64,000 nucleotides of DNA from Flammula alnicola (taxonomy: Eukaryota; Basidiomycota; Agaricomycetes; Agaricales; Strophariaceae). Below are positions 4,000 to 35,987 of this stretch, piece after piece. Location of the stretch: positions 124,001 through 188,000 of the forward strand of contig JADNRV010000061.1 of NCBI GenBank assembly GCA_015499995.1. The letters are read 5' to 3'. Made by a program: the position numbers and the translations under genes. The notes below the pieces were generated by a model. The model was not told where the DNA came from, ran no database searches, and worked only from the letters and a program-made list of their open reading frames with translations. Each line of letters starts with the position of its first letter. Position 1 is the first letter of the stretch.

Positions 4000-4170
4000 T
4001 GGAACCGTGGATCTGGTGCCGGGCTCGGCATAGACGGATTAGATTAGATCATAGATGGTACAGCGGATCACTGTAGGTACTGTACAGTCCGATCGCCCTA
4101 CAGAATACACATCGATCCTTGCTCCCGACTTCCATCGCGCTTGAGTCCTTCGTCTCGTTTGCCGTCTCCA
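4000..4170 (+). repeat. 5' LTR (171 bp)
   Basis: Begins TGGAACCGTGG, ends GCCGTCTCCA, and matches the 3' copy throughout. Short for a gypsy LTR. Confidence 0.92.
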
Positions 4171-4172
4171 TC

Positions 4173-4190
4173 TGGTGACAACAGAGCGAT
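4173..4190 (+). other. Putative tRNA primer-binding site
   Basis: TGGTGACAACAGAGCG begins two bases after the 5' LTR. The leading TGG is complementary to the CCA end of a tRNA, as expected for minus-strand priming. I cannot name the tRNA. Confidence 0.55.
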
Positions 4191-4550
4191 CCTACTTCTC
4201 TACGAGCTTCAGTATTCAGTCTTCAGCATTCGGCGTACGGTTATTCGGTCATTCGGTTTGGTGTTCAACAGCAAGAGTCATTATACTTCCGTCGACAGGT
4301 TCAAACCTTAAAAATTCCATCAACAAATCTGGCGAGGAGAAGGCAGCTTCCCCCCCGTGATCCTAGTGGAAAGTTTCTACCTAAACCCGTCACCGTCAAC
4401 ACAGATCTCGGGCCCAGCTACATTCCCCAGCGGATACTCGTGCCAAGGTCTATTGTGACGCCACCCGCGCCAGCGTACCAGCAGTGCACTACCGGTAATA
4501 TCCCTACAGTCGGGCCTCCCACACTGAAAACTATTCCCGACACCAACGTC

Positions 4551-5766
4551 ATGTCAGACAATCAAGGCTTGCGCATGTTCTGGGGTGATGGTGAAATCGA
4601 CGGCGAGAATCCACAGGACTTCATCAACGGCGTTGAGCGCAGCTTCCTTGCAAAGGCAAATCTCACGGAGAAGGATAAGGTTCGGACTTTTGAGTTGTGG
4701 TTGAAGTCGGGGAGAGCGGCGAAGATTTGGTGGAACGGACTAGCAGTGGATGAGAAAGACACTTGGGAGCATTTACGAGGGGCGTTTGAGAAGAGGTGGC
4801 CGGAGAAGTTAATTACGGAGAAAACAATGGAGGAGCAGCATGCAACATTGGCATCGACAGTTCTGAAAGAGGAGGATTTGGGGAGGAGGGTGAAGGTAGA
4901 CGGAGTGGAGGAATTCTCGCATGTGGTGTGGGCGGACAAGCTGGAACGACTTTCGACGGCGCTAAAGGATGACAGCGGCCTTCTCATCCCAACAGTGCGC
5001 AAATCTATGCCCAGGGCACTCAAGCTTCTCGTGGGCACGCAGCATCGCACCTGGCCAAACTTCTGTGAGGCTATCCGAAAGGTCTCGATCACGGAGTTGG
5101 AGGAAAAGCTCGAGATCGAACAGGAAGCGCGCATGATACAGGCGACGGTCACCCGTCTGGAACAGCTCCAGAAGTCACCGACCAGAGGCATCCGTGAAGC
5201 GTTGAGCACGAACGTCGCTTGGTTCACCAATTCCCGCACCGCGTTTTGCGATTCAGCGGGCAGCAACCCAGCCTGCGCCTCCTGCCACTCCGGGACCAAC
5301 TGCGGGAAGCATGGCATCAGCTCCCCAGTACCGACCTGACTCTGAGCGCCTCGTGGATGTCGTACGCCTCGCCTTGCCCATCCATCCGAATACGCCGGCA
5401 GGCAAGCTCGCATACCAAGCCCAGGTTGCAGAGTGGACCCAGAACAACTTGGGTCGTCCTGTGAATGAGATGCGGCCCTATCCTCTCAGCCCCGGTACTT
5501 CTCCTGTCGCAAGTGGGGAGTGTTGGAAGTGTGGACATGAAGGCCATCTTGGCACACTGTGTAGGACAGCAGAGCCAGTGCCGGTGATGGAGCAGAAGTG
5601 GCGGTCAATAGCTGCAACTATCAAGAGGCGTGCGGAGGCGGCTACGGTGGCGGTGAATTTTGTGATGGAGGATGGAACGTGGATCAGCAGGGACGAGTAC
5701 GATGCACAGGTCATTGCGGCACATGAAGCTAGCCGCCAGGGAAATGGAGACGGGTCGTCAGCGTAG
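4551..5766 (+). CDS. gag: Gag polyprotein of the gypsy element, with one frame change
   Basis: The first ATG in the long frame is at 4551 (MSDNQGLRMFWGDGEIDGEN), with capsid-like sequence following (FINGVERSFLA, AAKIWWNGL, LRGAFEKRWPE). This frame stops at 5337-5339. From about 5206 a different frame carries the continuation: an Ala/Pro-rich linker, then a CCHC zinc knuckle CWKCGHEGHLGTLC near 5521-5562, then TAG at 5764-5766. Gag therefore spans two overlapping frames (4551-5339 and about 5206-5766). The linker reads as normal coding sequence in the second frame only, so a one-base indel in an originally continuous gag is likelier than programmed frameshifting inside gag. Confidence 0.8.
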
Positions 5767-5848
5767 AGAAAGGAGCTCCGTTGGCGACCCTAATTCAGCG
5801 GGATGTAGGGGCAGCTGTCCCTGAGCTGTGAACGGGGGGCTCGGGGAC

Positions 5849-8800
5849 ATGAATACACCTAACGCGGAGCGTACAGAGGTTAACGATGGCAATAGGGTAG
5901 ACGAAACCACGAACCTGTACAATCTCGACGGCGAAAATGAAATATTTGACCTGTATCGCGTTGGTGTAGAGGATGAGATTGCGAGGAGTGTCCCCTTCGT
6001 GCAGACAGTCGGTTTTGCGGGGCTGAAAGGCGAGGTGGTGCGTTTGAAAGGTGTATTCGATGATGGGGCGATGGCAAATGCGATAGACGCGGGGGTTTTT
6101 GGGGGGGTGAAGGATTTTTTGTCAGCGTTAATTCCTTCTCGGAGACGGCTACGGATGGCGGATGGTCGGGTGGTTCCATCTCTCGGCATGTGGATTGGCG
6201 TTGTGTGGCTGGGTGACGTGGAAAGGAGGGGCGCTTTCGAGGTTTTCGACAGCAACGGTGCATGGGCAGTGTTGTTCGGCAAGCCTCTGCTGTCCAGCTT
6301 TGCTGCTGTCCACGACTACGGGCTGGATGTGATACACATCCCGGCGGGCAGTGGAAAATTGGTGCTTGCGAACCTATTCTCTGTGACGGAGTCGACGGCT
6401 GGCGGTCAGCCATCGATTGGGGTTGTCGGCCTCACGGATGGCATCGAGAAGCATGGCTTAGCCCAAGCCCCTCGCCCTTTAACAAGCGATGGGCGCGAGA
6501 GGCAGTCCATGGAGGAGAGGGCGGCGTGGAGGGTGTCCCAAGGATTGCCGGAGAAGAAGTCGAAGAGTGAGAGACGGTTGCGGAGTTGGATGACGCAGTT
6601 GAAGGCACGGAGGAGGGGACGGGCAGATGATGAGATTGGTGGAGGAGGAATGGCTGAGAGGGTGCATACGGGGACAGAGGTCTGGGGTGCTGAGGATGTA
6701 GTCCCGGGTGTTGTGCACAGCGAGCCACAGGAACATTGGAGCTCGGTCTGGACAGTAGATGAGGTGGCAGAAGGCGATTTTGGAGATCCTGGCGTCGAAC
6801 AACCCATGCTTGCGAGGACATTGCAACCGGACATCCTCACTCGTCGCACAGACCCATTCCTTGCGGCCAGAGTTGACGCGGTTATGGCAGAAATCACCAT
6901 TGGCGACGATCTTTCTGCCGACGAGAAGGAGAAGGTCACATCCCTGCTTCACGAATTCGCTGACTGTTTTGCATTGTCAATGAGTGAGGTTCTACCAGTC
7001 GAGGGCGCAGCTCACAAACTCAACATACCTGAAGGCGCCAAATTTCGCACCAAGGTCAATCAGCGTCCACTCAGTGTACCGCAGTGGGAGTACTTCAACG
7101 GTGTCATCGACAAGATGTTGGAGGCTGACATCATCATGCCTATTAGCCATCGAGACGTTAAGAGTTGTGGTGCCACGACGCTGGCGAGGAAAGCTCACGA
7201 GAATGGCGGATTGTCCATCGAGGATCTTCAGCATCGCGTAAACGACCAGTGCGTAGCTGCGGGTTTTCCTTCAGCTTTCGAAGACCTGCCACCCAGGCAA
7301 GACTCGCACGTACCAGGGACTGAGGACGAGGCCCCGGCGCCAAAATGGCGAGTTTGCCAGGACTTTGCTGATCTCAACCGGGTGACGCAGGTTCCCGCGC
7401 TTCCCCAGGGCGATATACGAGCGAAGCAGCAGCGCCTAAGCGGCCACCGCTGGTTGAACGTCTTCGATTTTGCATCGGGGTTTTATGCCTGTGAGGTTTC
7501 AAAGGACGATCAGCCCTACTTGTGTTTTTATGTGGAGGGGCGGGGATACTTCTGTTATAAGCGCATGCCATTTGGATTGACGGGCGCGCCATCTACATTT
7601 GGGGAGATGACGGCGAGGAATTTGGGAGATTTGGTGGGGTTGCTGTTCGAGTTGTTTGTGGATGATGGGGGAATGGCAGGGGATGAGTTCGACGAGATGT
7701 TGGGGAATTTGAGGGTTTTGCTGGAGAGGGTGAGAGAAAAGGGGTTGTCCTTGTCAGCTTCGAAGTCAAGGTTCTTCGTCACAGAAGCCGTTTTCGCCGG
7801 AGCACGAGTGGGGCCTGCAGGAATCCGTCCCGATCTGTCTAAGCTGACAGCGATTGTGGACTGGAAAACACCCACGGACTTGCAGAATCTGGGCGCTTTC
7901 ACAGGGCTGACAGGCTATTTTCGGACGTTGGTGAAGGGGTATGCGGTTATGGCTCAACCATTAACAGATCTGGCGAAAGGTTTAGACATTCCGCGGGGAA
8001 AAGGGAGGGTGGCATACAGACGGGCAATGAAGGGGTATTCTCTGGAGGGTCTATGGAAGCGCGAGCACACCCACGCTTTTCTCAAACTCAAGATCGCGCT
8101 TACATGTGAACCCGTGCTCAAGGGTCCAAAGTTCGACGGCACTCCTTTCATTGTCACTACGGATGGGTGCAAGGTTGGCTTTGCAGGCATGTTGACACAG
8201 AAGCATACGACGGTTCTGCCTAACGGAAAGGAGGTTACCCGTCTTCACCCAGTTGCTTTTGCGTCGAAACGGACATCAACAATAGAGGAGCGATATCAGC
8301 CTTACATCCTGGAATTCGCGGCACTCAAGTTCAGCCTGGACAAGTTTTCCGATATTATTTGGGGATTTCCTATCGAGCTCGAGACCGACTGTCAAGCACT
8401 ACGCGACCAACTAATTAGTACGAAGTTGAACTCCACCCACGCCAGATGGCGCGATGGAGTGCTCGCCTACAATATCATTGATGTCCGACACCGCCCTGGA
8501 CGTCTGAACCCTGTCGCCGACGGCCTCAGTCGGAAGTACGTCAATTTGCCGCTGGAGGTGGGAGACGGGCACGAGTGGACCGTTAGCGAGGATTGGGAGG
8601 TTAGGACGGGTTTAGCTCACGATATTTTCAGTATCACGGAAGCGGGAGGGGTTGACACAGGTGTGGAGGCAGCATTGAGAACGAGGTTTGCGCAGGAGAG
8701 GGTGTTCTTAGAGGTGATTGAGGCGATGCTGGAGCTGGACCATGGGAAGAGTTTGCGGGAGAAGAGGAGGGCGAGACATAGGGCGAAGGGTTACTTGATC

Positions 8801-10429
8801 AAGGGCGAAAGGTTGTGGAAGCTGGCAGATGGGAAGTCGATTCGAGCGCGGCCGAGGGTGGAGTGCGTGACGCGGGCGGAGGCGAAAGCACTGGCTTGGG
8901 AGGCTCATCGCGACGGCGGGCACTTCCAGCAGGACAATGTCAAGGCCGCCTTGTTGGATCGCATATGCAGCCCTGGACTTGATCAGTCAATAACGCTGGC
9001 CATCACGGAATGCGGGAAGTGCAAAGGATTTGGCAATACTCACCTCCACTCGCTGCTGGAACCGATAACGCGACGGCACCCATTCGAGCTCATGGTTTCC
9101 GATACCCTCACCATGCCAACGGGGAAAGGCGGCTTGAAGAAGGTCAGCCTGTACATTGACGTTTATTCTCAGCACGTTTCGGGTGGGGCGCTGCGCAAGG
9201 CTGCTACCGGGAAATCAACACGCACTGCTCTTGCGAGGGTCTGTGATACCTTCACAAACCCTGAGACATTGATGACCGATGGCGGACCCGAGTTCGACAA
9301 CTCGGAGGTGCGGGAGTTCTGCGAACTACGTGGCATCAATCTCCATATCGTGCCCGCGTACTCGCCGTGGATAAGTGGGCTAGTAGAGGGAACTAACAAG
9401 ATATTGTTGGGGCGGTTGAAGAGGTTGTGCGCGCCGGATCTGGGGGAGGATGAGTACGACAGGATGGAGGTGCCGGAGAATTGGCCTATGTACCTGGACG
9501 ACGCCATTCGTTATCTCAACAAGCGAATTCTTCCACTTCTGAAGTTCTCGCCGAACGAGCTGCTCCTGGGGCTCGTTGTCAATACCCCTCCGACACCGGT
9601 CGATATGGCGCAAGGGCCTGTGACAGGCGGCGATGTTTCCTTACAGTCGGCGTATGTGAATCAGCAGCGATTGGATGGCTATTCACAGATCGTGGAAAAT
9701 GCTCACCGTCGAAAAGAGGCTTTCGACAAGAAAGTGGAGGCCAGGGCACCTCGCGAGGTGATCTTCAAAGCGGGGCAGCTGGTCCAGGTGTACCGCAGTG
9801 ACCTCGACTACACTTTCAAGGCAATCCGGAAGATCGAGCCCAAGTGGTCTGCACCCCGTCGTGTCGTCAGCCGCCGAAAGAACTCATACAAGCTTGAAAC
9901 ATTGGAAGGACTCCCAATTGGCGGTCATTTCAGTTCTCGCCGTTTGCGGCGCTTCATTCCAAGAGACGGAACGAGTCTTCAAGCAGCGCAGAAGGCGGTA
10001 GAGGATGCGCTGGGGTTGGCAGAGGAGGATGCCGATGTGGGGGCTGAAGTTGAAGGTGACATCGACGTGGGAGAACAAGATGTTATGGCTGACAGAGATG
10101 ATGATGCCACGTCTATCTCCGAGGACGAGAGCGGAGAAGAGGGTGGGGCAGGAGCAGGGCCATCAGACAGCGAGAAGAGCGACGGTGAGAGCAGCGAGGT
10201 TAGAGAGGATCCAGAGCACGAAGAAGCAAGTGGAGGAGAAGAGGAAAACACGACGATTCCTGTGACTGGCCCGAGAAGGAGCGCGAGATTGGCAGCGCGA
10301 ATTTTTCTCCTGGGTTTCGACGAAGGCGACGATTACGTTCTTGACGCAACGAGGACGTTGCTTTCAGAGGGGGTGGGCACATGGAACCGTGGATCTGGTG
10401 CCGGGCTCGGCATAGACGGATTAGATTAG
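5849..10429 (+). CDS. pol: Pol polyprotein: aspartic protease, reverse transcriptase, RNase H, integrase
   Basis: 1526 codons without interruption from ATG 5849; an earlier GTG at 5828 is also in frame. Residues from the ATG: protease-like motif FDDGAM near 70; RT palm motif LFVDDGG near 602-608 (YVDD variant); RNase H TDGC near 771; integrase HHCC zinc motif (H..H, CGKC) near 1020-1057; integrase core acidic residues in SDTLTM, TDGGPEFDN and GLVEGTN (about 1085, 1144, 1180). A GPY/F-like module (VQVYRSDLDYTF) and an acidic tail follow; there is no chromodomain. The last codons, ending GSGAGLGIDGLD, and the stop at 10427-10429 lie inside the 3' LTR. Pol starts in a different frame from gag, 82 bp after the gag stop. 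Confidence 0.93.
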   Translation: MNTPNAERTEVNDGNRVDETTNLYNLDGENEIFDLYRVGVEDEIARSVPFVQTVGFAGLKGEVVRLKGVFDDGAMANAIDAGVFGGVKDFLSALIPSRRRLRMADGRVVPSLGMWIGVVWLGDVERRGAFEVFDSNGAWAVLFGKPLLSSFAAVHDYGLDVIHIPAGSGKLVLANLFSVTESTAGGQPSIGVVGLTDGIEKHGLAQAPRPLTSDGRERQSMEERAAWRVSQGLPEKKSKSERRLRSWMTQLKARRRGRADDEIGGGGMAERVHTGTEVWGAEDVVPGVVHSEPQEHWSSVWTVDEVAEGDFGDPGVEQPMLARTLQPDILTRRTDPFLAARVDAVMAEITIGDDLSADEKEKVTSLLHEFADCFALSMSEVLPVEGAAHKLNIPEGAKFRTKVNQRPLSVPQWEYFNGVIDKMLEADIIMPISHRDVKSCGATTLARKAHENGGLSIEDLQHRVNDQCVAAGFPSAFEDLPPRQDSHVPGTEDEAPAPKWRVCQDFADLNRVTQVPALPQGDIRAKQQRLSGHRWLNVFDFASGFYACEVSKDDQPYLCFYVEGRGYFCYKRMPFGLTGAPSTFGEMTARNLGDLVGLLFELFVDDGGMAGDEFDEMLGNLRVLLERVREKGLSLSASKSRFFVTEAVFAGARVGPAGIRPDLSKLTAIVDWKTPTDLQNLGAFTGLTGYFRTLVKGYAVMAQPLTDLAKGLDIPRGKGRVAYRRAMKGYSLEGLWKREHTHAFLKLKIALTCEPVLKGPKFDGTPFIVTTDGCKVGFAGMLTQKHTTVLPNGKEVTRLHPVAFASKRTSTIEERYQPYILEFAALKFSLDKFSDIIWGFPIELETDCQALRDQLISTKLNSTHARWRDGVLAYNIIDVRHRPGRLNPVADGLSRKYVNLPLEVGDGHEWTVSEDWEVRTGLAHDIFSITEAGGVDTGVEAALRTRFAQERVFLEVIEAMLELDHGKSLREKRRARHRAKGYLIKGERLWKLADGKSIRARPRVECVTRAEAKALAWEAHRDGGHFQQDNVKAALLDRICSPGLDQSITLAITECGKCKGFGNTHLHSLLEPITRRHPFELMVSDTLTMPTGKGGLKKVSLYIDVYSQHVSGGALRKAATGKSTRTALARVCDTFTNPETLMTDGGPEFDNSEVREFCELRGINLHIVPAYSPWISGLVEGTNKILLGRLKRLCAPDLGEDEYDRMEVPENWPMYLDDAIRYLNKRILPLLKFSPNELLLGLVVNTPPTPVDMAQGPVTGGDVSLQSAYVNQQRLDGYSQIVENAHRRKEAFDKKVEARAPREVIFKAGQLVQVYRSDLDYTFKAIRKIEPKWSAPRRVVSRRKNSYKLETLEGLPIGGHFSSRRLRRFIPRDGTSLQAAQKAVEDALGLAEEDADVGAEVEGDIDVGEQDVMADRDDDATSISEDESGEEGGAGAGPSDSEKSDGESSEVREDPEHEEASGGEEENTTIPVTGPRRSARLAARIFLLGFDEGDDYVLDATRTLLSEGVGTWNRGSGAGLGIDGLD
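10366..10377 (+). other. Putative polypurine tract
   Basis: AGAGGGGGTGGG lies four bases before the 3' LTR, the expected place for plus-strand priming. It overlaps the end of pol. Confidence 0.6.
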
Positions 10430-10552
10430 ATCATAGATGGTACAGCGGATCACTGTAGGTACTGTACAGTCCGATCGCCCTACAGAATACACATCGATCC
10501 TTGCTCCCGACTTCCATCGCGCTTGAGTCCTTCGTCTCGTTTGCCGTCTCCA
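10382..10552 (+). repeat. 3' LTR (171 bp)
   Basis: Matches the 5' LTR over its whole length and contains the last codons and stop of pol. It is followed by CTGG, the target duplication. Confidence 0.92.
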
Positions 10553-10556
10553 CTGG

Positions 10557-12047
10557 GAATGAGCCGAATTCTTAATCAACTTCGGCGGAGATGGCTCAGG
10601 TCAACATGGTTAGCGATTCGAGCAAGAAGAGCAGCAGAGAACGGGCCATTGCGCTCGCGAATGATCGGACAAAACCGTATCCTACTGTTGCCACTTATCT
10701 CGTTGGATCGGCGAGTCTGCCCTAACTCTCTGCCTCACGTTTCGACTTTGGATACATCAGGTCCTCCGCCAGCCGGTCTTCCTAATACGACATGGCGGGC
10801 CTTGGCTGGATGACACGATCTTAGCCATCGCCAGCTCATTTTGTTTCGCTCGATGCTCAATAACGCCAATGCGAGCATTGTCGCGGATGAATCGCGTCTC
10901 TCAATTCGTGAGTCACTTCCTTTTTTTCAGTCTCTCCATGTTCGTCAATAGGGATTGGAGATAGGGCGATGCTCTGAACGATACGACCACCTTGCCTTCG
11001 GAGAAGAAACGGGGGAGTGATCGATTGCGTATGAGCGGCTCCCTGAAATGTTGCGAGCTCTGAAGAGAAATCAGACAGCGGGCGATGCGGTTTCGCCTAC
11101 GTCCCCTCCGCAGCCTGCTCCCATTGCCAGTGTCCTCCACTCGACAACGTCGCTGAGCACCCGATCGTTTGCAGGAAGCAAGAGTCGTCGTCGGTACCTA
11201 CATGCGCGTCGTCCTATAGGCAGCCAACATGGTCGACGTGGCAGCTCAAGTACAGGGCGCGAGTCGATGCGAGTTTCTATCGAGCTGGATAGAGATGCGG
11301 CATCCACTATGCGGTATAACGAAGCTCTCCTCGTCATCCTTCATTGGCGTGCTCATCCTGAGATCAGTGCGTTCCATCGTCTTTTCTGTTTCTGTCTCCT
11401 TCCCCCAACTCTTCCCCCTCTTCACAGGCAATTTCGAAGAACGCCGGAGAGAAGAATGACCCGGAATACCGCTGAGAAAACCTCTCTCTCCTCAGTTTAT
11501 ACCCTGGGCCACTGGAGGCTCATTCGTATTCAGCGAATATTCCTCCTCGCTCCGAACATCGAGCGCGAACGATGGATACTTCATCTCGTCGCTTTCGCGA
11601 ATATAACGTTCACGCTGCTCATGGCGTTGCTCTGCAAAAGAGGATGGTTTCCGTTGGGTTACGTTAGCATGTGGTGTCGACGTCTACTCGATACCGTCCA
11701 ATGAAACGTTCGCTAAATGTGGGCAGCGCTGGGGTTAGACACATGTCTTGTCCTTTTAACGTACGTGGACGCCCAGCAAGACCTTCACCGAACACCCGGT
11801 ACGTACCAGACAACTAAATTGATCCTGGCAGGTGACGGTCACGATAGAGCATAAGTGGATGCTTGGTGGACAGCAATTGAGCTGAAAATGACGGATTAAG
11901 GCGCGTGCGGAGTGGAGGTAACGAGGTATTAATTGTCTGGATAGTGACAGACAATAATATCGATCCGATTACCGCAACGGAGGTGGATATTTAAGCGCAC
12001 TCTTTAGCTAATGATGATCTTCTCTGACCTCTCACTGCTCTCCGCCA
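10557..12047 (+). pseudogene. Right part of the duplicated relic in copy 1, leading to HET1
   Basis: Matches 25355-26928 in direct orientation, including shared stretches such as GCAAGAAGAGCAGCAGAGAA and the block encoding SLSTRS.AGSKSR. The longest frame here (11048-11704) is broken in copy 2, and neither copy gives a full-length product. Hydrophobic strings (FIGVLILRSVRSIVFSVSV; LVAFANITFTLLMALLC) suggest the ancestor had membrane segments. The family is not recognised. Both copies look degenerate, though single-base errors may add to that impression. Confidence 0.5.
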
Positions 12048-15000
12048 ATGGACTCTCCGACAATGGACTCTCCCTCTCCCCTAATGGACTCTCCACTAGT
12101 GGACTCTCCAATAATGGACTCTGCATCAATGGCCGGACCAAACGCACGCTGGATTGAAGTGGGTGATCTCGGCAAGGCTCTTATATTACTTTGCTGAAAG
12201 TGTCACTTCAGAAATTGGAAGACTTGCGTCAACGCCACCCAGAGGTGGTGTGTGATCTCATAAAGTTGCTAATGATATGCATATTGTTAACATAGCCTTT
12301 AGCTAAAGGACTTGGCGGTGAGTGATCTCCCTGTGTCTTTAGGAAAATAGTTGATCATGCTGGGGCGTGGGCCACGGCTATTTTCCAGATTGTAATTGAT
12401 TTTCTTTTGTTCAAGAAGAGCCGCCTTCTGACCACGTGTTGCTCGGTCATTTACACTAGGACGTAAGTGATTTTGTCCTATGATAAGTAATGGCTACCAT
12501 GCTGATTGTGTTGTCTTTTTTCTATGCTATGTTCTTCTCTTAGTGGGCATGTGTTATTTTGTCAAACTCTAAAGAATACTTTCTAACCTTGATTTGCCGT
12601 CTTTGGGCTACCAGGAAGTAAGCAAATTCATTGGATAAATGCAAAATACTTGCTAATTGTGATGCACCATTCATATGTCTTCAGAATGTATGTGCTCTTG
12701 TCAATACTTAGAGCCCTTTTGACCACAGAGTGCATCCATGATACCATCAGGAAGTATGTTTGCCCATCAAATGCATGAAAGAAAGTTGCTGATGAATTAT
12801 ACCATCATCACAGTTAGTTGGTGTTCTCGCAGAGTATGTGCACAATATTTTCTGATTGTTTTGGTCATTCTTTCCACTCAGAAAGTGTGTGAGCACTTTG
12901 ATTACATGCGTGAGATGAGCTGATCAGATTTGTCATTGAATTGGGTTTTCAGGATGTGAGGACTTTCATCAAGTCTGCACAAGAGATTTACTGACAAAAG
13001 GTGGCCATGATTTTGTGCTCAGGAAGTACATGAATCCATTAAATATTTTTCAAATTCCTAATAATAATGTGCTGCCTTTGTGTCCTCAGGCAGTATGTGA
13101 ATCCATCTAATATTTGCAATCATTTACTCATGATAATGTGCTGCTTTTGTGTCCTCAGACAGTATGTGAATCCATCTAATATTTGCGGTGATTTTCTAAT
13201 GATAATGTGCTGCCTTTGTGTCCTCAGTTTGTGCGTGAATATATCTAATATTCACAGTAATTTTTTAATGATAATGTGCTGCCTTTGTGTTCTTAGCATG
13301 TGCGTGAATCCATCTAATATTTGCAGTAATTTGCTAGTGATAATGTGCCGCCTTTGTGTTATCAGTTTGTGCGTGACTCCATCTGATATTTGCAGTAATT
13401 TGCTCATGATAATGTGCTGTCTTTGTGTCCTTAGTGGGTATGTGAATCCATCTAATATTTGCAGTAATTTGCTAATGATAATGTGCTGCCTTTGTGTCCT
13501 CAGGAAGTATGTGAATCCATCTAATATTTGCATTGATTTGTTAATGATAATGTGCTGTTTTTGTCTCCTCAGATGGTGTGTAAATCCATCTAATATTTAC
13601 AGTAATTTGCTAATGATAATGTGCCGCCTTTGTGACCTCAGGTCGTGCGTGAATCCATCTAATATTTGCAGTGATTTTCTAATGATAATGTGTTGCCTTT
13701 GTGTCCTCAGGTTGTGCGTGAATCCATCTAATATTTGCAGGGATTTGCTAATGATAATGTGCTGCTTTGTGTCCTCAGCATGTGTGTGAATCCATCTAAT
13801 ATTTGCAATGATTTATTAACCATATTGTGTTGCCTTGGTGTCCTCAGGCAGTATGTCAAATCTCTCAATTTTTACAAACATCACTGATCATATTGGGTCA
13901 CCTCTCTGTCCTTAGCGAGTATGTAATATTCATTGGGTGTGTATAACACCAACTCAAGTATTTCTCTGTGGCTTTTCTGTATCCTGCAGCAGGTGAGCAA
14001 GTCTGTCATGGCCTACAGCCGTCACTTGAGAATACATTCATTAATACCGGACTTCCAAGGACAAATACCCTCCATGTATGTCCTGATTTTTTATTTGGGA
14101 TCGGGTGTGCACTCTATATTGACTTTTTCCTTTCAAGTCATCAATAATGTCATAAATGAACACATTCAGAATCAACTTCCGATATTCCTTCTTTATCTCA
14201 AAGACATGCAGCTTGTCCGTAGGAGCACCATTGGACAGCATTTCAAGAGTGATATCGCGCAATATATCAACGACTTCGTAAAACAGGGCCGGGATCCCTC
14301 GGAGCCTCAAGTTCTACGTGATCTGACCACTCATACCAAGGAATGGGTAACGGAACAGACGGCATACGCGATTTTTTCTCATCGGTGGCTTGACGAAGGC
14401 GAATTGACTTTTCAGGACATATCAAAATTCAAGAAACTTAGCAAACGCGGATTTCAGCAATTGATTCGTAAATCCAACCGTGAGATGCGTGGGGGTGCAG
14501 ATATTTTGGACAAGGTAATCGCTTTTACTCGGAACGCCCCAAAGAACACGGAGAAGGACCGTCTCGGATTACTGGAAGTAATGAAAGAGCTGTGTAGAGG
14601 GATGTCAGATGAGGAGAAACGCAGCTGTCAAGGCTTCGTGAAGCTCGTTGAATTTTGCAATCTCTCGTTGCAGTACGGTTGCAATTACGTCTGGTTCGAC
14701 ACCGGTTGCATCGACAAGAGCAGTAGCGCCGAGCTCGAGGAGTCTATTCGCTCCATGTTCAGCTGGTACCGCAACTCCAAGGTTTGCATAGTGCACCTCG
14801 CCGACACCGTTGATCTAGGGACACTTCAATCCGATCCATGGTTCACCAGGGGCTGGACTTTACAGGAACTCTTGGCTCCAAAAACAGTCAAATTCTTTGG
14901 GAGATCATGGCGACGGATAACACCCGCCGGTTTACGCAATAACGACAAAGTTCCCGACGACATCTTACAGGTCCCTCTCTGGGAGCGTATCTCAAAAATA

Positions 15001-15711
15001 ACAGGGATTCCGATCGACCAACTTCTCAACTTTACACCTGGGGTTAACCGCGCCCGGGAAGCGCTTGTGTGGGCGTCGAAAAGGCGAACAACCCGGATCG
15101 AGGACATAGCTTATTGTCTCATCGGCTTATTGGACATCCCACTTTCGATCGCTTACGGTGAAGGCAAAATGGCGTCCTACAGATTGCAACTGGAAATTCT
15201 GCAGCGCAGCCACGACATGGGATTATTCGTTTGGAAGGGAGAGCCATCAGCCTACAACAGCATGCTCGCCGCAGGCCCACACTGCTTCTCACCTCTCCCA
15301 TTACAGCCCGTAGTCACTAAAACACAGCGAGGTGCAGACATCGACAGAGCTTACACGCTCACTAATTATGGATTGCGCATCCCGCTTTCGGTTTACGGCG
15401 TCCAGATCCCTAACGAGGCGCGTCAAGAGAGTGGGCAGGTTGACGAGTCGGTGCTTGTAGAGACTTCGTTGCGGGTGGAGGAACTGGGAGAAATCAGAGT
15501 GAAGTCGGTGAACCTGGCTAAATATGATGGTCTCGAGGTTGCTCTTCTGCGGGATGTAGTTCTGCGGGATGTAGCATCGGACGAGTCATTTGCCCTAGCT
15601 ATCTTGCTAGGTTTCAACGATGGCCGGTGCGAGAGGATAATCACCGAAGAGCACATCGCCTTACGCCGTCCCACCGAATTGCGAACGCCGGTGATCACAT
15701 TCGTAGAGTAA
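12048..15711 (+). CDS. HET-domain protein 1, with a 24-unit single-codon microexon array
   Basis: HET-domain (PF06985-type) protein, a family linked to fungal non-self recognition and cell death. Proposed exons: 12048-12158, 12212-12247, 12303-12317, 24 exons of 3 nt (12389-13992), 14060-14075 and 14138-15711, giving 607 residues. HET motifs: YAIFSHRWLDEGELTFQD (~160), CNYVWFDTGCIDKSSSAELE (~265), DPWFTRGWTLQELLAP (~315) and RTTRIEDIAYCLIGLLD (~400) followed by AYGEG. The N terminus repeats MDSP-like units, absent from HET2. All exon joins up to the 16-nt exon are phase 0. That exon ends in phase 1 and joins the HET exon as CCA-T|TC-ATC, avoiding the stops met if the frame is read through. 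A model starting at ATG 14206 would keep the HET domain but lose the array. The last exon is unbroken. About 64% identical to HET2 or better across the HET region by eye. Confidence 0.85.
12389..13992 (+). repeat. Array of 24 single-codon microexons and their introns (HET1)
   Basis: Between each 3' splice site (mostly CCTCAG or CTTAG) and the next 5' splice site (mostly GTATGT or GTGCGT) lie exactly three bases. Start and codon: 12389 ATT, 12460 GAC, 12544 TGG, 12615 GAA, 12685 AAT, 12751 GAA, 12814 TTA, 12882 AAA, 12953 GAT, 13023 GAA; then 13090 GCA, 13159 ACA, 13228 TTT, 13297 CAT, 13366 TTT, 13435 TGG, 13504 GAA, 13573 ATG, 13642 GTC, 13711 GTT, 13779 CAT; then 13848 GCA, 13916 CGA, 13990 CAG. 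Introns are 60-81 nt; those from 13026 to 13847 are near-identical, giving a 69-bp period, with a TGCTAAT or TTCTAAT branch-like motif upstream of the acceptor. No triplet is a stop. The intron after 12544 uses a GC donor. Confidence 0.8.
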
Positions 15712-16345
15712 CGTTTCGTGCGGATTCATGTCTGTTGGTTTCAAGGTGAGTCATCAAAGACTTTACATCATCCTGTATATTTATGGATTGTGTGACGTTT
15801 CCAGGGGCTGAACATACTCAAGTTCTCTCTCTCTCTTTTTGTCCATTCCATTTTCACGACTGGCTTTGCCTCTTTTTTTCCTTTTAAAAAAAATGTGTAC
15901 CACCAGAAAGTTCGCGATCGCCGAACATGTATATAGTCTTTCCGTGCAGAAAGTGTTTGTACATGTACGTAGTAGTAGGTTAGCAGAAGTCGGTTGTAAG
16001 TACTATGGTCGCATACATACGTCATGTAGTGTCTCGCTTTTCCATGCTTGTAGTGCGTTTGTCGAATCAACGCGCGTTGTTGTTAGTTGTTGGCTCCTTT
16101 TCGCACGGGTTCGCAAGGCTCCCAGAAGCACACGGCAACATAGAGGCAGCAAGGGTAAGGGCAATGAACTTCACGGTAGCAGTATTCGATTTCGTTCGCA
16201 CGTTGGGAGATAAACTGACTTCTGGGCGGCAGCACAATTTAGTTGGCCTTTTATACGCCAGCGACTTGCGGTGCTAGACTCGTTTTGAAACTTCGGCCCC
16301 GTATAATTGGCGGCTTCCCTGCGATATTCCTACTTTTTGGTAGAT
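15712..16345 (+). repeat. 3' flank of HET1, right end of duplication copy 1
   Basis: 15712-16105 matches 30912-31345, including TCAAGGTGAGTC just after the stop, which may be a 3' UTR intron donor. 16106-16345 matches 33171-33420 instead. The two matching blocks are contiguous here but 1.8 kb apart in copy 2. No gene is supported in this stretch. Confidence 0.7.
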
Positions 16346-23039: not shown

Positions 23040-23985
23040 CCTTGATGTCGTACGAGAATCTCGCATTTTCGTTATTCCCTTACCCCGAAGCCGTACGCCC
23101 TCCAGCCCTCCGGTATTCCTCCAGGTATTCAAAAAGCTGTAGTTGATATGCAGGATGAAGCTTTGAAGGCCGAATGACGCCCGCGATAAGGAGAAGTGGA
23201 TGAAGCAGGACTTTGAGGGCATTGGGCCGTTACCTGGCGGTGTTGCTCGTTATGGAGGTTGGGTTGGGTTGAGAGGAAATGGGTTGAGAGGAAACACGAA
23301 GCCTTGAAGAATCTAGAGAGAGACTGGGAACCAGGTGGACGCTGACCTCGATCATGTTATATGCTGAAGGAGGTTCGTCACACCTTCATTTCACTCGTCA
23401 TCTCATATCTAAAGCACAGACAAGATAGACGCAGCGGAAACACTCGTGGCCCTCCAACAAGAACAGGCCATCATCCGATCAATCTAACGCCCACCTTTCG
23501 CGTGTACAAATCTCTGCTCCAAGGCGGCCACTACATTGACAATCACACAACCATCAACGTTGAGTGAGTATACTGCTCTTCATGGCCTTCAGCAGCGCTT
23601 GCTAACCAATCCCTCGGTGTGGTGCTCCAGAAAGAGCCTATAACCATTGTCTTAGGGAAGGTAACTGCGTGCTTGTCGTTGCGAAATTCTATAAGGCTCT
23701 CATGCAAGGAGAGGCGAAGGAGGGAAGACGAACGCTGAAGCTCTGAAGGCTTGGTTTGGTGATGATCAACGCAGATCAAGGGTAAAGAGGCGAATGTAAA
23801 GAAGGTTCTGTTAGAGTACTGTTGTGTACGTTCTCCATTCCTCTATTCTATTTAATTTGGGTCAGAGTCAGTGGTCGCTAATCGCGCTTTTAGAACGTTC
23901 ATCGATCTATTCTGATCGACCGCATTTCGTGCGTATTGCTCTTCTACGGTACGCTAAATATAGACTTATGCGATATTTCTAGTAG
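23040..23985 (+). pseudogene. Relic A of a second duplicated segment (partner 35020-36374)
   Basis: Matches 35030-35780 in direct orientation: both encode QDFEGIGPLPG, RYGGWVGLRGN and INLTPTFRVYKSLLQGGHYI followed by a GTGAGT donor. The frame shifts repeatedly. Its last 110 bp match the end of the cytochrome P450 fragment of the partner, encoding RSSIYSDRPHF. The first part belongs to a family I do not recognise. Confidence 0.5.
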
Positions 23986-24719: not shown

Positions 24720-26928
24720 TCTCATTTCCCAACGACGGATATGTTTTCTAGTGCACAGAACGTTTGCAGCACATTACAATCACAGGAGGAACGTTTACAG
24801 TCCTCGAATAGAATGGTACCCATCGTCATTTCGTGGGCAGGCACGCTCGAGGTACGCTATCATTTGTTTCTGGCTGTAACTTTATCAAAACCTTTATGTA
24901 CGATGGCGAAAGCTGTCCCAGAGTCCGTACTATCCCTACTATCCCGCCCACGATCTCTTCAATGGCTGAAGAGTTTGTGACGAATACGGAACGTACGTCT
25001 TTCTTTTCTTCCTGTATTCTCCCCCAGTGCCATAACCTCATATGTTCATCTGCACAGCTCGAGGAACTTCAACAAACCTACAACACGCTCGTCTCTCAGG
25101 TTCCCTCCATCCTCGAAGACCACATCCAGCAACATGCTTATCATCTTTACCACGTACCACTTCTCCGAGATTTTTCGCCAATCTCTCGACTAAATCCAAA
25201 CCCAGGACGCGAACTAGGTCTAATGCCAATCCTACACCTAGGCTGCTCTCTACTTCGGCATCGGCTCGCTCCAGGACATTAGCACAGCACATCTTGCGTG
25301 CAAGGAGATGGCATCTGCGTTTTACGCCATCAACTCCAAGTACCGCATCTCCTAGGATTGTGGCGAATTCTTAGTCGAGTTCGGCGGAGGTGGCTCGGGT
25401 CAACGTGGTTAGCGACTCGAGCAAGAAGAGCAGCAGAGAACGGGCCATTACACTCGCGAATGATCAGATAAAACTGTATCCTACGGCTACCACTTGTCTC
25501 GTTGGATCGGCGAGTCTGCCCTACCTCTCCGCCTCACGTTTCGACTTTGGATACATCAGGTCCTCCGCCAGCTGGTCCTCCTAGTACGCCATGGCGGGCC
25601 TCGACAGAACGACATGATCTTAGCCATCGCCAGCTCGTTTGGCTTCGCGAGATGCTCATTAACGCCAATGCGAGCATTTCGCGGATGAATCGTGTCTATC
25701 AATTCGTGAGTCACTTCCTTCTCTTCAGTCTCTCCATGTTTGTCAATAGAGATTGGAGATAGGGCGATGCTCGGAACAGTATGACCACCTTGCCTTCGGA
25801 GGAAGAAACGGGGGAGTGGTCGATTGCGTATGAACGGCTCCGTGACATGCTGCGAGCTCTAAAGATAAGTCAGACACCGGCCGATGCGGTTTCGCCTACG
25901 ACCCCTCCGCAGCCTGCTCCTATGGCCAGAGTCCTCCCCTCGACAATGTCGCTGAGTACCCGATCGTTGGCAGGAAGCAAGAGCCGTCATCGGTACCTAC
26001 ATCCGCGTCTTCGTATGGCTAGCCAACACGCTCGACCTGGCAGCTCAAGTACACGGCGCGAGTCGATGCGGGTTTCGATGGAGCTGGATAGAGGCGGCAT
26101 CGACCACGCGGTATAACCGTACCTCCTTCTCCGCTGCGAAGCCCTCCTCGTCATCCTTCATTAGCGTGATTATACTTCAGCTGGAGATCAGTGCGTTCCA
26201 CCATCTTCTCTATTTTTGTCTCCTTCTCACAACTCTTCCCGTTATTCACAGGCAGTTTCGAAGAACGCCGAAGAGAAGAATGCCCCGGAATACCGCTGAG
26301 AAAACCTCTCTCCCCTCAGCTTATACCCTGGGCCGCTGGCTCCGTATTGAGCGAGTATTCCTCCTTGCTCCGAACATCGAACCCGAATGATTCATGTCGT
26401 CGCTTTCGGAAATATAACGTTCACGCTGCTCATGGCGTTGCTCTCCCAAAGAGGACGGGTTCCCGAGACTGCTCTGTATCCGACGATCTGGCGGATTTTA
26501 CGCCCGGGTCGCGGTAGCATTTGAAGCCGACGCTGAGTACTGCTGGGTGGGTTTAGAATGTGGTTTAGACGTCGAATCCTGGATACCGTCCAATGAAACG
26601 TTCGCTGAATGTGGGCAGAGCTGTTAGACGCGTGTCTTATCCTTGTAACGTACGTGGACGCCCATCATGACCTTCACCGAACAGCGAGCACCAGACAGCT
26701 AAATTCATCCTGGCAGGTGACGGGCACTATAGAACATACGTGGATGCTTGGTGGACAGCAATTGGGCTAATTAAGGCGCGTGTGGAGGTGATGGGCTATT
26801 AATTGTCTGGATAGTGATAGACAATAATATCGATCCGATTACCGATCCGATTATCGCAACGAGGCGGATATTTAAACGCACTCTTGAGCTAATGATGATC
26901 TGCTCTGACCTCTCACTGCTCTCCACCA
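24720..26928 (+). pseudogene. Duplicated relic in copy 2, upstream of HET2 (contains the empty gypsy site)
   Basis: 24880-25350 matches 3560-3999, and 25355-26928 matches 10557-12047. The join near 25350 (CATCTCCTAGGATTGTGG) is what copy 1 would read without the retrotransposon. Exon-like blocks include SSMAEEFVTNTE and LEELQQTYNTLVSQVPSILE, joined by a plausible intron, then SLSTRSLAGSKSRHRYLHPR. No complete frame remains. The start of HET2 follows directly. Confidence 0.5.
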
Positions 26929-29900
26929 ATGGACGAATCAAACGAAAGCTGGATCAAAGTGGGTGGTCTCGACAAGGCTCTCATATCGCTTTGCTGACAG
27001 CGTCACTTCAGAAAGTGCAAGACTTGCGTCAACGCGACCCCGAGGCGGTATGTGATCTCATCAAGTCGCTAAGGATATGCATATCGTTAACGTAGCCTTT
27101 AGCTAAAGGACGTGGAGGTGAGCGATCTCCCAGTGTCTTTAGGGAAATAGAAGTTGATTGTGCTGGGCCTGGCTATTTCCCAGTTTGTAATTAATCTCAT
27201 TCTTTTTAAGAAGAGCCGCCTCCTAACCGCGTGTTACTCGGTCATTTACAATAGGATGTAAGTGATTTTGTCCAATAACAAGTAATGGCTACCATGCTGA
27301 TTGCGTTGTCTTTTTTATGTGCCGTGTTCTTCTCTCAGTGGGCATGTGTCATCTCGCTGAACTCTAAAGAATATGTTCTAACCTTGACTTGCCGTTTTTT
27401 TGGCTATCAGGAAGTACGTAAATTTATCGGATCCATGTGACATACTTGCTAATGATGATGTACCATCAATATGTCTTTAGGACGTATGTGCTTTTATTGA
27501 TAATTAGAGCCCTTTTGACCACATAATCCATCCATAATACCATCAGGGAGTATGTTTGCCCTTTGAATACATGAAAAAAAGTCACTGAAGAACTATACCA
27601 TTATCACAGATAGTTGGTATTCTCGCAGATACATGCAGTATATTTGCTGATTGCTTTGATTATTCTTTCCACCCAGAGAGTGCGTGAGCACTTGGATTAC
27701 ATGCACAAGATTAGCTAATAAGTTTTGGCATCAAATTACATCTTTAGGGGGTAAGGACTTTTGTCAAGTTCACATAAGGGATTTACTGATGAAAGGTGAC
27801 CCTGATTTTGCGGTCAGGATGTATGTGAATTTATCAAATATTTTGAGTGATTTGCTAATGATAATGTGCTACCTTTGTGTCCTCAGGAAGTGCGTGAATC
27901 CATCTAATATATGCAGTCATTTGCTACTGATAATGTGCTGCATTTGTGTCCTCAGCATGTGCGTGAATCCATCTAATATATGCAGTCATTTGCTAATGAT
28001 AATGTGCTGCTTTTGTTTCCTCAGTATGTGCGTGAATCCATCTAATATATGCAGTTATTTTCTAATGATAATATGCTGCCTTTGTGTCCTCAGCTTGTGC
28101 GTGAATCCATCTAATATATGCAGTTATTTGCTAATGATAATGTGCTGCCTTTGTTTCCTCAGGAAGTGCGTGAATCCATCTAATATATGCAGTCATTTGC
28201 TAATGATAATATGCTCCCTTTGTGTCCTCAGACAGTATGTGAATCCATTCAATATTTGCAGTGATTTGCTAATGATAATATGCTGCCTTTGTGTCCTCAG
28301 ACAGTATGTGAATCCATCTAATATATGCAGTCACTCGCTAATGATAATGTGCTGCCTTTGTGTCCTCAGCGTGTGCGTGAATCCATCATCTAATATATGC
28401 AGTCATTTGCTAATGATAATGTGCTGCCTTTGTGTCCTTAGGAAGTGCGTGAATCCATCTAATATATGCAGTCATTTGCTAATGATAATGTGCTGCCTTT
28501 GTGTCCTCAGTTCGTGTGTGAATCCATTTAATATATGCAGTCATTTGTTAATGATAATATGCTCCCTTTGTGTCCTCAGCTCGTGCGTGAATCCATCATC
28601 TAATATATGCAGTCATTTGCTAATGATAATGTGCTGCCTTTGTGTCCTCAGGAAGTGCGTGAATCCATCTAATATATGCAGTCATTTGCTAACGATAATG
28701 TGCTGCCTTTGTGTCCTCAGGATGTGTGTGAATCCATCTAATATATGCAGTCATTTGCTAATAATAATGTGCTGCCGTTGTGTCCTCAGCATGTGTGTGA
28801 ATCCATCTAATCATTGCAGTCATTTGTTAATGATAATGTGCTGCCTTTGTGTCCTCAGGGAGTGCGTGAATCCATCTAATATATGCAGTCATTTGCTAAT
28901 GACAATGTGCTGCCTTTGTGTCCTCAGGAAGTGCGTGAATCTATCTAATATATGCAGTCATTTGTTAATGATAATATGCTCCCTTTGTGTCCTCAGCTTG
29001 TGCGTGAATCCATCTAATATTTGCAATCATTTGCTAATGATAATGTGCTGCTTTTGTGTCCTCAGGGAGTATGTGAATTTCCTCAACTTTTACAAAGATT
29101 CACTGATCATATTGGGTCACCTATCTGTCCTTAGCGAGTGTGTAATATTCATTATGTGTGCATAACAGCAGCTCAAGTGTTTCTGTGTGGCTTCTCCATG
29201 TCCTCCAGGAGGTGAGCAAGTCTGACATGGCCTTCAGCTGTCACTTGAGAATACATTCATTAATACTGGACTTCCAAGGCCAAATACCCGCTGTGTATGT
29301 CCTAATTTTTTATTTGGCATCAGCTGTGCACTATATTCACTTTTTGCCTTTCAAGTGATCAATAATGTCATAAACGAACACATTCAGAATCAACTTCCGA
29401 TATTCCTTCTTTCCCTCAAAGACATGCGGCTTGTCCGTAGGAGCGCCATCGGACATCATTTCAAGAGTGATATTGCGCAATATATCCACGACTGCGTAGA
29501 ACAGGACGGGGATCCCGAGGAGCCTCAAGTTCTACGTGATCTAACCGTTCATACCAAGGAATGGATAACGGAACAGACGGCATACGCAATTTTTTCTCAT
29601 CGTTGGCTTGACGAGGGTGAATTGACTTTTCAGGACGTATCAAAATTCGAGAAACTCAGCAAACGCGGATTTCAGCAATTGATTGGTAGTAAACCCAACC
29701 GTGACATACGTAGAGGTGCAGATATTTTGGACCAGGCAATCCGTTTTACTCCGAACGGCCCAGAGAATATGGCGAAGGACGGTCTCGGAATACTGGAAGT
29801 AATGAAGAAGCTGTGTAAAGGGATGTCAGCCGAGGAGAAACGCCGATGTCAGGACTTCGTGAAGCTCGTTGAATTTTGCAATCTCTCGTTGCAGTACGGT

Positions 29901-30911
29901 TGCAATTATGTCTGGTTCGACACCGGTTGCATCGACAAGAGCAGTAGCGCCGAGCTCGAGGAGTCTATTCGCTCCATGTTCAGCTGGTATCATAACTCCA
30001 AGGTTTGCATAGTGCACCTCGCCGGCACCGGTAATCTACGGAGTCTTCAACACGATCCATGGTTCACCAGGGGCTGGACTTTACAGGAACTCTTGGCTCC
30101 AAAAACAATCAAGTTCTTTGGGAAATCCTGGCGACGGATATCACCCACCGGTTTACGCAATAACGACAAAGTTGCCGACGACGTCTTACAGGTCCCTCTC
30201 TGGGACAATATCTCAAGAATAACAGGGATTCCGATCGACCAACTTCTCAACTTTACACCTGGGGTTGACCACGCCCGGGAAGCGCTTGTGTGGGCATCGA
30301 AAAGGCAAACAACCCGAATCGAGGACATAGCTTACTGTCTCATTGGCTTATTGGACATCCCACTTTCGATCGCTTACGGTGAAGGGAAAATGGCGTCCTA
30401 CAGATTGCAAGTGGAAATTCTGCAGCGCAGGCATGACATGGGATTATTCGCTTGGCAGGGAAAGCCATCCGCCTACAACAGTATGCTCGCTGAAGGCCCA
30501 CACTGCTTCTCACCTCTCCCAATACTGCCCGTAGTCACCGAAACACAGCCAGGTGCAGACATCGACACTTACACGCTCACTAATCGTGGATTGCGCATCC
30601 CGCTATCTGTTTACGGCGTCCAGATCCGTAACAAGGCGCGTCAAGAGAGTGGGCGGGTTGACGAGTGGGTGCTTGTAGAGACTTCGTTGCGGGTGGAGGA
30701 ATTGGGGAAAATCAGAGTGAAGTCGATGAACCTGGCTAAATATGATCGCCTCGAGGTTGCTATTCTGCGGGATGTATCCGACCGGAGAGATACCCTTGCT
30801 ATCTTGCTGGGTTTCAAGAATAGTCGGTGCGAGAGGATCATCACCCAAGAGCACATCAAGTTACGCCGTCCCACCGAATTGCGAACGCCGGTGATCAGAT
30901 TCGTAGAGTAA
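26929..30911 (+). CDS. HET-domain protein 2, with a 30-unit single-codon microexon array
   Basis: Paralogue of HET1. Proposed exons: 26929-26958 (MDESNESWIK), 27012-27047 (KVQDLRQRDPEA), 27103-27117 (LKDVE), 30 exons of 3 nt (27184-29211), 29279-29294, and 29356-30911; total 580 residues. The 16-nt exon joins the last exon as CTG-T|TG-ATC, restoring the same AKYPLL-INNVINEH frame as in HET1. Without splicing, the upstream frame stops at TGA 29356-29358. HET motifs are all present: YAIFSHRWLDEGELTFQD, VWFDTGCIDKSSSAELEESI, DPWFTRGWTLQELLAPK and TTRIEDIAYCLIGLLDIPLS. The last exon is intact. The family acts in heterokaryon incompatibility and related cell death; a role here is inference. Confidence 0.85.
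27184..29211 (+). repeat. Array of 30 single-codon microexons and their introns (HET2)
   Basis: Start and codon: 27184 TTT, 27255 GAT, 27339 TGG, 27411 GAA, 27481 GAC, 27547 GGA, 27610 ATA, 27677 AGA, 27748 GGG, 27818 GAT; then 27887 GAA, 27956 CAT, 28025 TAT, 28094 CTT, 28163 GAA, 28232 ACA, 28301 ACA, 28370 CGT, 28442 GAA, 28511 TTC, 28580 CTC, 28652 GAA, 28721 GAT, 28790 CAT, 28859 GGA, 28928 GAA, 28997 CTT; then 29066 GGA, 29135 CGA, 29209 GAG. Eighteen introns between 27821 and 29065 are near-identical, 66 nt each except two of 69 nt with an extra ATC. Donor GTGCGT, TGCTAAT branch-like motif, acceptor TTTGTGTCCTCAG. The remaining introns are diverged. No triplet is a stop. The intron after 27339 has a GC donor, as in HET1. 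Confidence 0.82.
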
Positions 30912-31345
30912 CGTTTCGTACCGATTCATGACTGTTGGTTTCAAGGTGAGTCGTCGAAGACTTTATATTCTTGTATATTCACGGATTGTGTGCATTTCCA
31001 GTGGCTGAATGTACTCAGGCTCTCTCTCTGTTTTTTGCCTATTCCATTTTTTACGGCCCATTTTACCTCTTTTTTTAAACGTGTACCAGAAGTTTGCGAT
31101 CAGTGAAACATGTACTTATATAGTTTTTCCGCTCAGAAAGTGTCCCATATCGTTTGTATTTTACTCCTACACAAGTACGTAGTAGGTTAGCAGAAGTCGG
31201 TTGTACTATAGTCGCGTACATACGTCTTGTTCTAGTCCTTGCGCGTCTCTCAATTTTTCCTTTGTTCGCAGTTTGTATTTAGGCTTGTACTACGTTTTAC
31301 GTACTTTGTCGAATCAACGCGCTTTGTTGGCTCCTTTTTGCACGC
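30912..31345 (+). repeat. 3' flank of HET2, matching 15712-16105
   Basis: The same sequence follows both HET stops, with scattered substitutions and indels. Similarity breaks off after GTTGGCTCCTTTTTGCACG at 31345. No gene is supported. Confidence 0.7.
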
Positions 31346-35019: not shown

Positions 35020-35987
35020 TACTACTGCACTGAATCTCGCGTTACTCCCTTAACCCAAAGCCGCACACCCTCCGGTATTCCTCTAGGCATGCAAAAAGCT
35101 GTAATTGATATGCGGATGCAGCTTTGAATCGAATGACGCCCGCGATAAGGAAAGTGGATGAAGCAGGATTTTGAGGGCATTGGGCCTTTACCGGGTTGCT
35201 CGTTATGGAGGTTGGGTTGGGTTGAGAGGAAATACGAAGCGGAATCTAGAGAGGCTCCGGGAACCAAGTGGACGCCCTCGATCATCTGGAGGAGGTCGTC
35301 ACACCTTCATTTCACTCGACGTCTCATATCTAAAGCCTACCACCTTTCACAGACAAGACAGAAGCGCGGAAATACTTCTCAAAACTCATGGCTCTCCAAC
35401 AAAAACAGGCCATCATTCGATCAATCTAACGCCCACCTTTCGCGTGTACAAATCTCTGCTCCAAGGCGGCCATTACATTGACAATCACACTACCATCGAC
35501 GTTGAGTGAGTATACTGCTCTTCATGGCCTTCAGCAGCGCTCGCTAACCAATTGCTCGATGTGGTGCCCAGAAAGAGCCTATAGCCATTATCTCAGGGAT
35601 GGTAATGGCGCGTTTGTCGTTGCGAAATTCTATACGGCTTTCATCCGAGGAGAGGCGAAGGATGGAAGACGAACGCTGAATCTCTGAAGGCTTGGTTTAG
35701 TGACGATTAACGCAGGTCGAGGGTAGAGCAGCGAATTGCAAGAAGGTTCTGTTAAAAAGTTGACATTACTTTGAGTACTGTCGTGTACGTTCTCCGTTCC
35801 TCTTTTCTATTTTATTTGGTAATTGTTTGAATCCAGAGTTCTTCGGGCGACGAGTCAATGGATTTTCAATGAACGCCTTCCCTTGCGGATACAGCCCGTT
35901 CGTTTAGTGACTTCATTCAAAAGTCTCGTGAATGACGCAACGCTCTAAGGGCTCGGGATAAATCGCTACTGCCTCCTCAAGTACAGG
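35020..35987 (+). pseudogene. Relic B of the second duplicated segment (partner 23040-23985)
   Basis: Contains the same coding blocks as relic A (QDFEGIGPLPG, SHLHFTR, INLTPTFRVYKSLLQGGHYI) with different indels. Neither copy gives an open gene, and the family is unknown. A P450 fragment follows directly. Confidence 0.5.

Follow-up and report, generated by a model that had tools for sequence, protein, structure and literature searches.

Two tandem genes of the basidiomycete Flammula alnicola that encode HET-domain proteins probably contain long runs of exons of one codon each. The genes lie on the forward strand of the window, the 64,000-nt stretch of contig JADNRV010000061.1 that was analyzed, and are called HET1 and HET2 here (these are labels, the first taken over from an earlier note on this DNA, and not published names). 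HET1 has 24 predicted 3-nt exons in succession and HET2 has 30, both counts depending on how a single genome assembly (74.4 Mb) resolved a tandem repeat. We think it probable that these arrays are spliced as one-codon exons and that they are likely a module for diversifying a cell-death (self/non-self) protein. The one-codon reading, which the earlier note had put forward for HET1, has good sequence support (two paralogs, conserved splice sites, a constant length of 3, constant phase and hypervariable triplets), the exons as such being predicted from sequence. The features of both genes are collected in Table 1.

Table 1. Predicted features of HET1 and HET2 (positions are those of the window)
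Feature	Position	Strand	Remarks
HET1 whole gene	12048-15711	+	product of 607 residues from predicted gene model
HET1 exon 1, predicted	12048..12158	+	111 nt; N-terminus with MDSP repeat
HET1 exon 2, predicted	12212..12247	+	36 nt; 31/36 identical to HET2 counterpart
HET1 exon 3, predicted	12303..12317	+	15 nt; 13/15 identical to HET2 counterpart
HET1 array, 24 predicted 3-nt exons	12389..13992	+	from splice signals and paralog comparison
HET1 array unit starts 1-12	12389, 12460, 12544, 12615, 12685, 12751, 12814, 12882, 12953, 13023, 13090, 13159	+	
HET1 array unit starts 13-24	13228, 13297, 13366, 13435, 13504, 13573, 13642, 13711, 13779, 13848, 13916, 13990	+	
HET1 array homogenized core	13058..13856	+	69-nt period, 11.6 copies (Tandem Repeats Finder)
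HET1 16-nt exon, predicted	14060..14075	+	joins HET exon in frame
HET1 last exon, HET domain (PF06985)	14138..15711	+	
HET2 whole gene	26929-30911	+	product of 580 residues from predicted gene model
HET2 exon 1, predicted	26929..26958	+	30 nt
HET2 exon 2, predicted	27012..27047	+	36 nt
HET2 exon 3, predicted	27103..27117	+	15 nt
HET2 array, 30 predicted 3-nt exons	27184..29211	+	predicted peptide FDWEDGIRGDEHYLETTREFLEDHGELGRE
HET2 array homogenized core	27814..29078	+	69-nt period, 18.2 copies (Tandem Repeats Finder)
HET2 16-nt exon, predicted	29279..29294	+	
HET2 last exon, HET domain	29356..30911	+	deposited as BDZ97DRAFT_1166513, without the array

The layout that the earlier note described for HET1 proved correct in most respects. 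YAG stands before each of the 24 triplets, with GT after 23 of them and GC after one, the array introns are 60-81 nt long, and the lengths of the three upstream exons and the in-frame junction of the 16-nt exon with the HET exon were as claimed. Two descriptions were too general. Donors had been given as GTRNGT with one GC: 17 of the 24 fit and the GC donor is there, but six deviate (GTAATT, GTAAGC, GTTGGT, GTGAGG, GTACAT and GTGAGC). A branch-like motif had been attributed to the introns, and CTNAY occurs 10-45 nt before the intron end in 19 of 28. The weakest unit is unit 7 (TTA, donor GTTGGT); dropping it would leave 23. The predicted array peptide is IDWENELKDEATFHFWEMVVHARQ. It had been described as a plausible helical segment, a suggestion that is not supported, its amphipathicity being no greater than that of shuffled sequence (P 0.57); the HET2 array peptide lacks an amphipathic signal too (P 0.11 against shuffled sequence). 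At the N-terminus of HET1 there is a second length-variable stretch, a 15-nt exonic repeat (MDSPx, 12048-12122), which exon 1 of HET2 does not have.

HET2, whose 30-unit array was missing from the earlier note, is a tandem paralog of HET1 lying 15 kb downstream. The two genes lie in the two copies of a segmental duplication arranged in tandem (about 10553-16027 and 25352-31230), the aligned pieces of which are 82-86% identical. Both gene models have the order exon 1, 36-nt exon, 15-nt exon, array, 16-nt exon and HET exon, and all exons outside the array have the same phase in the two genes. In HET2 25 of the 30 donors match GTRNGT, and CTNAY is found 10-45 nt from the end of 25 of the 34 introns. 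The GC donor (GCATGT), which follows a TGG codon, is common to both paralogs (12544 and 27339). Profile PF06985 matches the two HET exons with 38.5 and 40.1 bits (curated cut-off 22.5), covering positions 42-89 and 42-90 of its 146.

The surroundings of the genes hold other repeated DNA. An LTR retroelement (4000-10556) with 176-bp ends that are 99.4% identical sits in the HET1 copy of the duplication; its ORF (5828-10429) has reverse transcriptase, RNase H and integrase domains. Since the alignment to the HET2 copy near 25352 continues on either side and the element is absent there, it was likely inserted after the duplication. Another repeated segment, 81% identical, lies on either side of HET2 (23070-23860 and 35040-35819), and an ORF with RCC1 repeats is found downstream of HET2 on the minus strand (33732-34655).

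Could such a run of splice signals arise by chance? Taking the arrays together, YAG precedes 54 of 54 triplets, GT or GC follows 54 of 54, and the exon length is always 3; all predicted introns, 28 in HET1 and 34 in HET2, run from GT or GC to AG and measure 53-81 nt. When a chain was defined strictly as YAG-NNN-G(T/C)RNG units spaced 45-100 nt apart, its maximum length was 14 units for HET1 and 23 for HET2. A null set of 2000 Markov sequences (2.4 kb each, with the HET1 region as model) contained no chain of more than three units, and that length came up twice. The units of the cores are near-copies of one another and so not independent, for which reason the later tests ask where variation falls.

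The reading frame was also informative. None of the 54 triplets is a stop codon (P 0.037 with the array composition, 0.075 with uniform composition), and retention of one array intron would give a stop or a frameshift in 23 of 23 cases in HET1 and 28 of 29 in HET2. All triplets are in phase 0, and skipping any number of them leaves the frame intact. The frame would thus survive complete skipping, and exons of 3 nt are sterically hard to splice; both points favor a situation in which the microexons, though real, are skipped for the most part, so that the main product joins exon 3 to the 16-nt exon and isoforms with array codons are minor. Constant skipping would not, however, maintain the unit-by-unit conservation of splice sites, and we judge this arrangement unlikely.

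Variation within the array cores, which the earlier note had not remarked on, is concentrated on the predicted exons. Among the 67 three-base windows of the 69-nt unit, the triplet is the most variable in each core (ranking based on 10 units of HET1 and 15 of HET2, with the array edges and two HET2 units carrying a 3-nt insertion left out). The column minor frequency is 0.5-0.6 in the HET1 triplet against a mean of 0.077 elsewhere, and 0.40-0.53 against 0.042 in HET2, although three single non-triplet columns of HET1 reach 0.5 and are as variable as a triplet column. Entropy gave a similar picture: 1.8-1.9 bits per triplet column in HET1 (12 units) and 1.4-1.8 bits in HET2 (18 units), against ungapped means outside the triplet of 0.46 and 0.33 bits and highest single non-triplet columns of 1.78 and 1.45, respectively. 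With gaps handled, 76% of core triplet sites in HET1 (11 triplets) and 66% in HET2 (19) differ between units, as against 12% (10 introns) and 8% (18) of intron sites; the introns are, in other words, 88-92% alike.

Such a contrast might come from a mutational process targeted to the triplets, which would then be real exons whose variability owes nothing to selection. Some HET2 units with two flank differences do differ at two or three of the three triplet sites (e.g. TTC and GAA). Triplets are not always the first to change, however: the HET2 GAA units, which have near-identical flanks (1-2 differences), keep their codon, a pattern that fits recent duplication of a GAA cassette. Homogenization of introns by short conversion tracts gives the same contrast, the triplets lack stops, and we know of no mutator that targets three bases between splice sites. 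We therefore hold targeted mutation to be very improbable.

The two paralogs permit a further comparison. By position, 13 units have a counterpart in the other gene, 10 of them at the 5' end and 3 at the 3' end. Triplet sites differ in 12 of 39 cases and intron sites in 132 of 809 (one-sided Fisher P 0.022), and the residue is changed in 9 of the 13 paired codons. All 52 splice-site bases (26 dinucleotides) are conserved in these units, the introns being 16% divergent (P 9e-5 at the intron rate). The NG86 method gave dN 0.38 and dS 0.48 for the 39 paired triplet sites, and dN 0.083 and dS 0.132 for the HET exon; 39 sites from 13 triplets are too few, and positive selection is not shown by this codon comparison alone. 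Since the triplet excess stands against the introns but the few synonymous sites do not show it, we grade diversifying selection on the triplets as likely.

These data also bear on the simplest alternative, in which each array is a minisatellite of 69-bp units inside one long intron, with untranslated triplets and with splice-like motifs that are relics or decoys. The 69-nt tandem period is indeed plain in both arrays, and the array codons do not occur in order in the deposited HET2 protein, the start of which reads like one unit. But one does not expect a repeat that evolves neutrally to be hypervariable at precisely the three positions flanked by AG and GT, and in both arrays, nor to keep every splice-site base between paralogs at that level of intron divergence; the lack of stops in the 54 triplets is a weaker point in the same direction. 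We give a minisatellite intron little chance.

The deposited protein, BDZ97DRAFT_1166513 of Flammula alnicola, shows full identity to the product of the HET2 exon along 89% of the query. It starts with MIMCCLCVL, nine residues that lie in the frame obtained by reading straight through the array, and this start, which resembles a repeat unit, looks like a gene-prediction artefact. Alternatively, the arrays could be coding throughout, with LMIMCCLCVL(S/R)xCVNPSNICSHL as a cysteine-rich 23-residue repeat in which the S/R-x pair is hypervariable. Besides the start of the deposited protein, this has in its favor open ORFs at 13067-13789 (240 aa) and 27684-29165 (493 aa) and the absence of TAG-making triplets from the cores (0 of 31, 3.8 expected), which is nominally stronger than the absence of stops in the one-codon frame (0 of 31, 1.3 expected). 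However, a 69-nt unit would by chance leave at least one of the three frames open more often than not (estimate about 0.7), and synonymous changes outside the triplet are not in excess (HET1, 8 of 28, P 0.17; HET2, 6 of 27, P 0.44; expected, 20%). The frame is moreover broken in HET1 by a 65-nt intron, the 5' units of HET1, spaced 63-84 nt, are out of register, and the splice signals are left unexplained. Read-through seems to us very unlikely.

The HET region itself was compared with its homologs. Of the first 62 listed, 27 (the window's own protein included) carry the motif HIQN..LPI close to where the HET exon begins, and 21 of the 27 have a deposited frame that starts at most nine residues from this motif. 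This is consistent with an exon boundary close to HIQN..LPI and another exon upstream. The predicted structure of BDZ97DRAFT_1166513 folds confidently, and its first helix (residues 2-22) crosses the start of the HET exon; going by this model, the array peptide would directly precede the helical start of the HET region. Nothing further is drawn from this helix because its first nine residues are likely misannotated. None of the best 120 of 5036 protein matches covers more than 90% of the query, only the HET exon being homologous, and among them an array could be shown for no homolog from outside this genome. Homologs in related agarics include some of 55-62% identity and CVT25_007700 of Psilocybe cyanescens. 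In one scan of viral contigs no relative was confirmed.

Are there other arrays in this genome? DNA queries made from three core units or from the diverged 5' units matched nothing beyond HET1 and HET2, and the three places with a two-unit GTATGT pattern are all within these arrays. Searching with HET protein yielded 35 matches, of which 33 lie outside the two genes. In 28 of these 33 loci, taken with 1.5-kb flanks, there was no run of at least four units, and in 20 of them taken with longer upstream stretches no chain was longer than two. The search covers these queries and HET loci, and the genome may hold arrays elsewhere.

How might a one-codon-exon array work and evolve? The cassette of about 69 nt would comprise one codon and one complete short intron. 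Introns of 60-81 nt with full donor and acceptor signals would be spliced by intron definition and removed one at a time; because intron definition should need nothing from the exon letters, these three letters would be free to change. Recombination among near-identical introns could prevent the splice signals from drifting apart and could insert or delete residues one by one, with the codons still diverging; we infer such homogenization by exchange from the pattern of variation and the difference between 24 and 30 units. Selection would act on the codons, with a presumed role in cell death or non-self recognition. Alternative inclusion of the phase-0 triplets would also be possible, as reported for truffle nank genes (see below).

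A bolder proposal, which we offer tentatively and with more doubt than confidence, is that the arrays are a codon-by-codon library. Unequal exchange among introns would edit the peptide residue by residue, and skip-safe alternative splicing of 24-30 phase-0 exons could yield in-frame combinations numbering as many as 2^24 to 2^30 and hence many receptor variants per gene; the array would be a specificity region for allorecognition or immunity, convergent with the truffle case.

The earlier note knew of no tandem run of 3-nt exons, but one is in print, in the nank (NACHT-ANK) genes of the ascomycete Tuber melanosporum (PMC4986451, PMC3689799, PMC10197012). According to the citing papers, which credit Iotti et al. 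2012 (Fungal Biol. 116:261), these genes diversify by alternative splicing of codon-sized microexons (PMC4986451, PMC3689799), which are put at 'tens' in PMC3689799 and at 3 bp in PMC10197012. Iotti et al. are also cited among reports of fungal microexons in PMC11121469, where it is stated that functional microexons have not been described in filamentous fungi and that experimental tests of fungal microexons have been confined to Schizosaccharomyces pombe. As far as nank can be compared through such descriptions, the likeness lies in tens of 3-bp exons (here predicted) in a fast-evolving fungal gene of immune type, the microexons being a reported diversification mechanism in nank. The difference is that nank is an ascomycete NLR family with reported alternative splicing, whereas HET1 and HET2 are basidiomycete HET-domain genes with predicted exons. 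In these two genes the hypervariable triplets lie among homogenized introns. The profile scan, run on the HET exons (the upstream predicted exons total fewer than 90 codons), found only PF06985 in either gene, with neither the NACHT and ankyrin domains of nank nor the NACHT and WD40 domains of the HNWD architecture. The arrays would extend a known kind, the one-codon-exon array, to a different phylum and a different gene family. No array of 3-nt exons from a basidiomycete was found in the literature searched, which covers few subscription papers and no preprints, so that absence is unproven; in the parts of basidiomycete papers PMC4014442, PMC3990503 and PMC8022950 that use the word, 'microexon' refers to read-mapping settings.

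If the arrays are transcribed as predicted, they are a case of extreme splicing, with up to 30 successive 3-nt exons, and offer a simple test of the minimum exon size under intron definition. Gene models can miss such arrays, as in the deposited HET2 protein, and other HET genes may hide them likewise. Should they be confirmed, one-codon-exon arrays would occur both in a HET gene of a basidiomycete and in NLRs of ascomycetes, which would point to a recurrent route for diversifying fungal self/non-self proteins.

Other systems resemble the arrays in part. HET-E, HET-D and HET-R of Podospora anserina (HNWD) are allorecognition genes with near-identical WD repeats under concerted evolution, each repeat being one WD40 protein unit with four positions under diversifying selection (PMC4986451). 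HET1 and HET2 share with them the HET cell-death domain and homogenized repeats in which few codons take up the variation (of 67 windows the triplet has the top rank in both cores), but the homogenized part is here predicted intron, and a single codon makes up the whole exon. Rapid evolution is a feature in common with the Schistosoma MEG genes (PMC10526429) and the aphid bicycle genes (PMC9168663). MEG genes have many short, mostly in-frame exons of 6-81 bp (also given as 3-81), mostly 15 bp, separated by long introns, and encode secreted products; the predicted array exons are 3 nt and the introns 53-81 nt, and a run of 3-nt exons in homogenized repeats does not figure in the description of MEG genes in PMC10526429. 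The closest report found for basidiomycetes concerns the P450 genes of Phanerochaete chrysosporium, which likewise have very short exons between short introns (microexons of 2-10 codons, the shortest 6 bp), but these are described as scattered over many genes and not as a one-codon tandem array (PMC1184071). A one-codon exon is also known from Drosophila homothorax; it is isolated and conserved (PMC7392893), whereas those predicted in HET1 and HET2 are tandem and variable.
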